This document shows positions 4,300 to 58,362 of a stretch of DNA of 64,000 nucleotides, in pieces. The notes under the pieces are model-generated. The model was not told the origin of the DNA. It was given only the letters and a program-made list of their open reading frames with translations, and searched no databases. Origin of the DNA: Eubacteriales bacterium (GTDB lineage: Bacteria > Bacillota > Clostridia > Oscillospirales > Oscillospiraceae); the NCBI GenBank assembly GCA_030536255.1, contig JAUNQI010000002.1:62001-126000 (forward strand), written 5' to 3'. The position numbers and the translations under genes are program-made. Position 1 is the stretch's first letter, and each line of letters starts with the position of its first letter.

Positions 4300-4461
4300 C
4301 CTGCGTGAGTGGGCGAACTATGCGATGAAGCGGGAGATTGCTCGCAAAGCGAGGTAACTTCCGTGGAGTATGTCCGGTATCGGAGTCCTTCCGGTACGCA
4401 ATCGGGCGGCTGGAGATTCATGCGAGCTTCCGAAGGAAGCGTATATCGCAGGAACGTGGAT
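4300..4461 (+). promoter_or_regulatory. Structured S10 leader (putative attenuation sensor)
   Basis: Long-range helix between CCTGCG (4300-4305) and CGCAGG (4447-4452) would enclose the whole leader. Inside are at least two perfect hairpins: CTCGC-AAA-GCGAG (4341-4353) and GCTTCC-GAA-GGAAGC (4426-4440). The element sits exactly between the promoter and the leader terminator, the architecture of a cis-acting attenuator. I see no start codon with a ribosome site inside it. The ligand is unknown; a ribosomal protein such as L4 is a guess by analogy with E. coli. Confidence 0.6.
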
Positions 4462-57964: not shown

Positions 57965-57990
57965 AAAAAAAGCCGCCTCTGTATGGCGAC
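57965..57990 (-). terminator. Terminator of the candidate ncRNA
   Basis: On the minus strand GTCGCC (57990-57985) and GGCGGC (57977-57972) pair with one G-U, loop ATACAGA, followed by T7 (57971-57965). Confidence 0.75.
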
Positions 57991-58181
57991 AAAATCCGAA
58001 TGTTTGATACGAAATCTAAATAACGAAATAGCCCTTGACCGGAACGTCTTTCACCCGCACCGATCAAGGGCTATTTCTCAGAAATTTTTGTATCAAGCAT
58101 CCTGGTTACCTCTCTTTCATCAAGACTCTATCCCGGGAGCATTTAACCCAGAATATCTATTAACAATCCTCCGTCGGATGC
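57965..58181 (-). ncRNA. Candidate structured non-coding RNA (~217 nt)
   Basis: No coding gene fits this 435-nt gap, but the minus strand has a complete transcription unit. A promoter TAGACT-17-TATTAT (58214-58186) lies upstream. A closing helix ATCCGA/TCGGAT (58179-58174 with 57999-57994) joins the two ends. A long hairpin has an outer stem TTGATAC/GTATCAA and a perfect 14-bp inner stem (58077-58064 with 58038-58025). A terminator GTCGCC/GGCGGC plus T7 ends it. An alternative GCATCC/GGATGC helix in the 5' half could switch with the closing helix. Size and end-to-end closure resemble 6S or raiA-type RNAs, but I cannot assign a family. Confidence 0.6.
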
Positions 58182-58185
58182 AATT

Positions 58186-58214
58186 ATAATATCATCTGAC
58201 ACATAAGAAGTCTA
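58186..58214 (-). promoter_or_regulatory. Promoter of the candidate ncRNA
   Basis: On the minus strand TAGACT (58214-58209) and TATTAT (58191-58186), 17-nt spacer; an overlapping TATAAT register exists at 58188-58183. Confidence 0.5.
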
Positions 58215-58278: not shown

Positions 58279-58307
58279 TTGACAAATCATAAAGAAAGAT
58301 ATACTAT
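58279..58307 (+). promoter_or_regulatory. Orphan + strand promoter facing addA
   Basis: TTGACA (58279-58284) and TACTAT (58302-58307), 17-nt spacer. The only thing downstream within 50 nt is an intrinsic terminator; no + strand gene follows. Confidence 0.55.
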
Positions 58308-58319
58308 TAAAATGTTGTG

Positions 58320-58362
58320 GCGATTCCGAAAACAATTTTTGTTTTCGGAATCGCTGTTTTTT
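58320..58362. terminator. Terminator at the addA 3' end
   Basis: Perfect 15-bp stem (58320-58334 against 58340-58354) with a 5-nt loop. The T-tract (TGTTTTTT) is on the + strand, while the minus side lacks a good one. It lies directly after the addA stop and 13 nt after the orphan promoter's -10. Confidence 0.75.

Follow-up and report, generated by a model that had tools for sequence, protein, structure and literature searches.

In the rpmE-addA interval of the window (the whole stretch of DNA that was analysed, 64,000 nucleotides), a series of gene-like features runs along the minus strand. A -10-like TATAAT lies at 58183-58188, and a transcript is expected to start near 58176; of the promoter reported in the original prediction of a structured RNA at 57965-58181, the -10 was confirmed and the -35 is weak. 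A promoter scan lists TAGACT-17-TATTAT overlapping the TATAAT, with 9/12 matches. Following a 5′-UTR hairpin, AUUCUGGG-UUAAAUGCU-CCCGGGAU (58130-58154), the Shine-Dalgarno (SD) region GAAAGAGAGG (58109-58118) stands 8 nt before the ATG (58100-58098) of a nine-codon open reading frame (ORF, 58071-58100), which reads MLDTKISEK and ends in TAG (58073-58071). The interval had been described as having no protein frame with a ribosome site, which this ORF contradicts. The stop codon is inside the 5′ foot of a long hairpin of about 18 bp, T1 (58025-58077), with a 5′ arm at 58077-58060 that contains the stop and a 3′ arm at 58042-58025. A linker (57991-58024) leads to a second intrinsic terminator, T2 (57965-57990), in which the hairpin GUCGCC-AUACAGA-GGCGGC (57990-57972) is followed by a T-run (U7 in the RNA). 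In this copy the U-tract of T1 is weak and T2 is strong. The predicted RNA is about 215 nt long, and 3′ of it lies rpmE, in convergent orientation. On the plus strand, beside the end of addA, a promoter-like TTGACA-17-TACTAT is directly followed by a 19-bp hairpin and a T-run (58279-58357), giving a possible transcript of about 45 nt with little in it besides a terminator.

The predicted minus-strand RNA is strongly structured, as had been claimed: its folding energy is -77.8 kcal/mol, whereas shuffled sequences average -54.2 (z -5.1, reached by 0/200 shuffles). Both the long hairpin and the intrinsic terminator at the 3′ end were confirmed where they had been placed. The helices on which a two-state switch was proposed did not fare as well. 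An end-to-end closing helix can form in the window copy, where the linker can pair back with the start-codon region, but across the family this pairing does not exceed that of shuffled linkers. The competing GCATCC/GGATGC helix can likewise form in the window sequence and is not conserved, leaving the switch dependent on non-conserved helices. Pairing between the start region and the linker may be a local device of the window copy rather than part of what defines the element.

A covariance scan of the interval against Rfam (6S, raiA and others), suggested with the prediction, found no family at gathering score. The interval matches no Rfam 6S model even in the permissive list, and the raiA model is matched neither in the window nor at the family loci. 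At gathering score the whole window yields a tRNA and an S10 leader, both outside the interval; the latter is the S10-Clostridia ribosomal protein leader RF03136 at 4317-4401 (+). The miRNA-like Rfam matches at permissive threshold were rejected as hairpin look-alikes far under their cut-offs. No description of the element was found in the open-licence literature searched. The original statement that no known family signature is present stands, but its non-coding, 6S- or raiA-like character does not, because a conserved ORF is fused to the hairpin. What lies here is probably a short, stand-alone, terminated RNA gene on the minus strand.

A second copy was found in the window's own genome, and near it, at L002:2063-2114 (+), there is a match to SpF59_sRNA (RF02440). 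By DNA-only matching 28/60 relatives were positive, nearly always across the segment from the SD to the hairpin. Using a covariance model built from 31 copies, we found the element in 93/102 congeneric genomes, with at most nine matches per genome, a few low-scoring ones being the reverse strand of the same hairpin. The model was positive in 74/394 genomes of the order, covering 37/169 sampled genera, and in a scattered 20/391 genomes of the class; in a phylum sample of 398 the window's own genome was the only positive. Named carriers are metagenome-assembled genomes under the labels Oscillospiraceae, Ruminococcaceae or Clostridia, and most come from the guts of ruminants and other animals. 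The copies make up a widespread family of tiny genes, each standing alone, that is found in gut Clostridia and had not been listed before. Predicted RNA lengths range from roughly 140 to 380 nt across the family.

The near-invariant SD region, together with the ORF, is the best-conserved part of the element. Among the 151 distinct copies compared, every one has Leu at codon 2 (151/151), written with six different codons, and GAT at codon 3; Thr, Ile or Asn stands at codon 4 and AAG or AAA at codon 5. Codons 2, 3 and 5 together show 39 synonymous and 0 non-synonymous departures, counts that come from related and partly pattern-selected copies and are not independent events. The peptide consensus is M(M/K/T)LD[ITN]K[SN]xxK, or (M)LD[ITN]K[SN]xxK without the optional residue. 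Outside the genus there were 51 covariance-model hits, 49 of which score at least 59 bits, and the ORF is intact in 48 of these 49: it has 9-10 codons, one copy with a GTG start, and ends in the hairpin foot. The single exception is frameshifted and has 11 codons. This comparison supports selection on the ORF as an amino-acid sequence, and neutrality is very unlikely because the element is spread over many families. A type I toxin-antitoxin system was considered and rejected: the peptide, MLD[ITN]K..K, is polar and charged and not of the short hydrophobic membrane type.

T1 also bears marks of selection. Over 31 copies the family hairpin of 17 bp has 99.0% of its cells paired, with compensatory change, both sides altered, at 10 of the 17 pairs, and 0/500 shuffles reach any of five measures. 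The stop codon takes part in this covariation with its 3′ partner, UAA opposite UUA 65 times and UGA opposite UCA 54 times. Such comparison supports the view that T1 is selected as a base-paired helix. Since at least four T follow it in 123/152 copies, T1 is an intrinsic terminator overlapping the stop codon in most of the family.

T2 begins at a median of about 28 nt past the inner end of the T1 3′ arm. A second terminator is present in 56% of copies, compared with 12.5% after ordinary genes (43/343 ORFs) and a shuffled expectation of 1.6/149. It occurs in 32/54 copies followed by a same-strand gene and in 35/62 followed by an opposite-strand gene, a comparison that supports T2 as a part of the element whatever the direction of that gene. 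T2 is somewhat commoner where the T1 U-tract is weak (p 0.03), which would agree with T2 serving, at least partly, as a backup, and T2 may be a backup only.

The genomic setting of the copies varies. In 51 cases the gene that follows shares the element's strand and in 61 it lies on the other one, and Pfam gave no common neighbour, the adjacent genes being unrelated housekeeping and transport genes. With unrelated neighbours and random orientation, the element does not behave as a cis leader. Conservation at rpmE-addA had been proposed as a check; in the two relatives found with adjacent rpmE and addA a short stretch without the element separates these genes, so that helix preservation holds, with T1 kept and covarying, at the element's other loci but not at this one. 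The closest sequence relative of the window copy, L003, is found between other genes in one of the two syntenic genomes; it is 81% identical over about 130 nt and shares the loop of the window copy's 5′-UTR hairpin. No match was found in plasmid or phage records, and viral contigs gave one. One of the 40 loci scanned with Rfam carries a Gut-1 RNA (RF01706), a member of an orphan family of gut sRNAs, at L212:1810-1884 (+), about 190 nt 3′ of its copy of the element. At five loci (L066, L069, L079, L016 and L006) two copies lie on one strand about 450-900 nt apart. Such paired copies at least sometimes differ in their 5′ regions, which suggests that the 5′ part is exchanged against a constant 3′ module.

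Most copies, as read from their sequence, have both promoter-like and terminator signals, the former 140-260 nt upstream of the SD and clearer in other members than in the window copy. The 5′ regions between are variable, and the largest similarity cluster holds 78/152 copies. A recurring hairpin, YCYC-RCUUAU-GRGR, is found about 75-100 nt upstream of the SD in 62 copies, a count from a loose pattern that includes a few spurious cases. When the variable 5′ region of 30 copies was folded to a consensus, one hairpin alone survived, UCUC-RCUUAU-GAGA; a larger multi-branch model was suggested by eye. Another SD-like site occurs in 47 copies (about 30%) and is followed by a short ORF, usually 2-3 codons long; M-Y-x* is the main form, and the types include MYR*, MYK*, MI* and MF*. 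All seven occurrences of M-Y-x* found in the genus lie upstream of the nine-codon ORF, and none of the seven leads another gene. The window copy has neither this micro-ORF nor the YCYC-RCUUAU-GRGR hairpin typical of other members, and most members lack its own 5′ part. By calculation the SD and start codon are no less accessible than with shuffled 5′ regions; sequestration does not go beyond these controls and so gives no sign of an upstream regulatory switch.

What might such a gene do? Our preferred reading, to which we give a probability of roughly 40%, is a mini-mRNA of dual function whose first terminator responds to translation. The element would be an autonomous mini-gene with its own promoter, a 5′ region that varies and is often structured, and a conserved 3′ module made up of a strong SD, the nine-codon ORF, T1 with the stop codon in its 5′ arm and, mostly, T2. 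In E. coli, a translating ribosome almost fully represses an intrinsic terminator near the stop codon, and terminator activity recovers beyond about 30 bp from the stop (PMC4824070). In the element the stop codon falls within T1 and T2 is well past that distance, a layout that predicts a long RNA ending at T2 if the ORF is translated and, if not, a short RNA ending at T1. A ribosome completing the ORF would cover the foot of T1 and keep it unfolded, so that the polymerase would continue to T2; with the ORF untranslated, T1 would fold and the RNA would be shorter. The outputs would be a nine-residue peptide and two 3′ ends set by translation, with the variable 5′ part, carrying a 2-3 codon micro-ORF in about a third of copies, tuning or sensing. 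We infer both the choice of end by translation and an action of the peptide or the RNA in trans, the latter being assumed because nothing is constant in cis. It could represent a small RNA of a new, translation-sensitive kind. A larger claim, that these are attenuators without a gene, multi-copy stand-alone small RNAs of Clostridia that read translation through the choice of T1 or T2, join short ORFs to interchangeable 5′ sensors and act in trans, is one we regard as doubtful.

The simplest alternative is a gene that does no more than encode a nine-residue peptide: the peptide would be the sole product, T1 and T2 ordinary tandem terminators set compactly at the stop codon, and the 5′ part promoter and UTR. 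Selection on the peptide sequence is what such a gene would show, terminators at or near stop codons are common (PMC4824070), and the excess of T2 where the T1 U-tract is weak also agrees with it. We nevertheless think it somewhat unlikely, as the long 5′ regions, the recurring hairpin and the conserved M-Y-x* micro-ORF exceed the needs of a plain mRNA, and no export or membrane feature is obvious in the peptide.

About 30% of copies combine two short ORFs with strong SDs in a single RNA, which raises another explanation: that the element engages ribosomes or tRNA as a decoy, loading ribosomes for very brief rounds of translation (the minigene effect), and that the peptide matters mainly for ribosome behaviour. 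Minigenes can act through peptidyl-tRNA drop-off. A minigene is reported in axe-txe (PMC8708949). The micro-ORF is found in only a third of copies and is missing from the window copy, and conservation of LD-x-K goes beyond what a decoy needs, making this explanation improbable.

Even less probable is a selfish or drifting MITE-like repeat that carries promoter, ORF and terminators by chance. Its dispersed, non-syntenic copies, 1-9 per genome, and an rpmE-addA interval without the element in both syntenic relatives are what such a repeat would leave behind, but purifying selection acts on ORF and hairpin across many families, no terminal repeats were visible by eye in the copies inspected, and the plasmid, phage and viral records gave the single match already mentioned. 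The original proposal of a structured RNA without coding function, like 6S or raiA, or of a riboregulator with two states would account for the strong fold of the window sequence but can hardly be right, as the coding evidence already contradicts it, no Rfam family is reached at gathering score and the closing helix is not conserved.

By its size, the element appears to be one of the smallest conserved protein-coding genes in bacteria, far under the usual limits of annotation and absent from Rfam, and it is present in nearly every examined species of one mostly ruminant-gut genus. If the two-terminator reading as a dual-function mini-mRNA is true, an attenuator can work as an independent RNA and not as the leader of a gene, and the copies with different 5′ regions are natural experiments on what the module senses.

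Among known systems, leader-peptide attenuators of the trp/his and pyrBI type are alike in that a short ORF has its stop codon in or right beside an intrinsic terminator, which lets a ribosome block that terminator, and in the element, too, a coding-selected short ORF overlaps a terminator hairpin. They differ in having a regulated gene downstream: the element stands alone, with no regulated same-strand gene and no constant gene 3′ of it, and a second terminator closes the unit. Dual-function sRNAs (SgrS/SgrT, SR1/SR1P, RNAIII/hld) resemble it as small, apparently autonomous RNA genes with a short peptide and structure outside the ORF. In contrast to these, the element's peptide is far shorter (9 residues), and the element is multi-copy, has a variable 5′ part and fuses ORF and terminator. 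Minigenes with ORFs of 2-3 codons (lambda bar, axe-txe) are matched by the 5′ M-Y-x* of about 30% of copies, although here the micro-ORF forms part of a larger RNA that carries another conserved ORF as well, and the window copy does without it. Finally, mccA, the gene for the microcin C7 heptapeptide, is among the smallest genes known, and it is similar as a tiny gene with a hairpin directly after its ORF. Unlike mccA, the element has no constant modifying-enzyme gene 3′ of it, its C-terminal residue is usually Lys and not Asn, and it exists in many unlinked copies.
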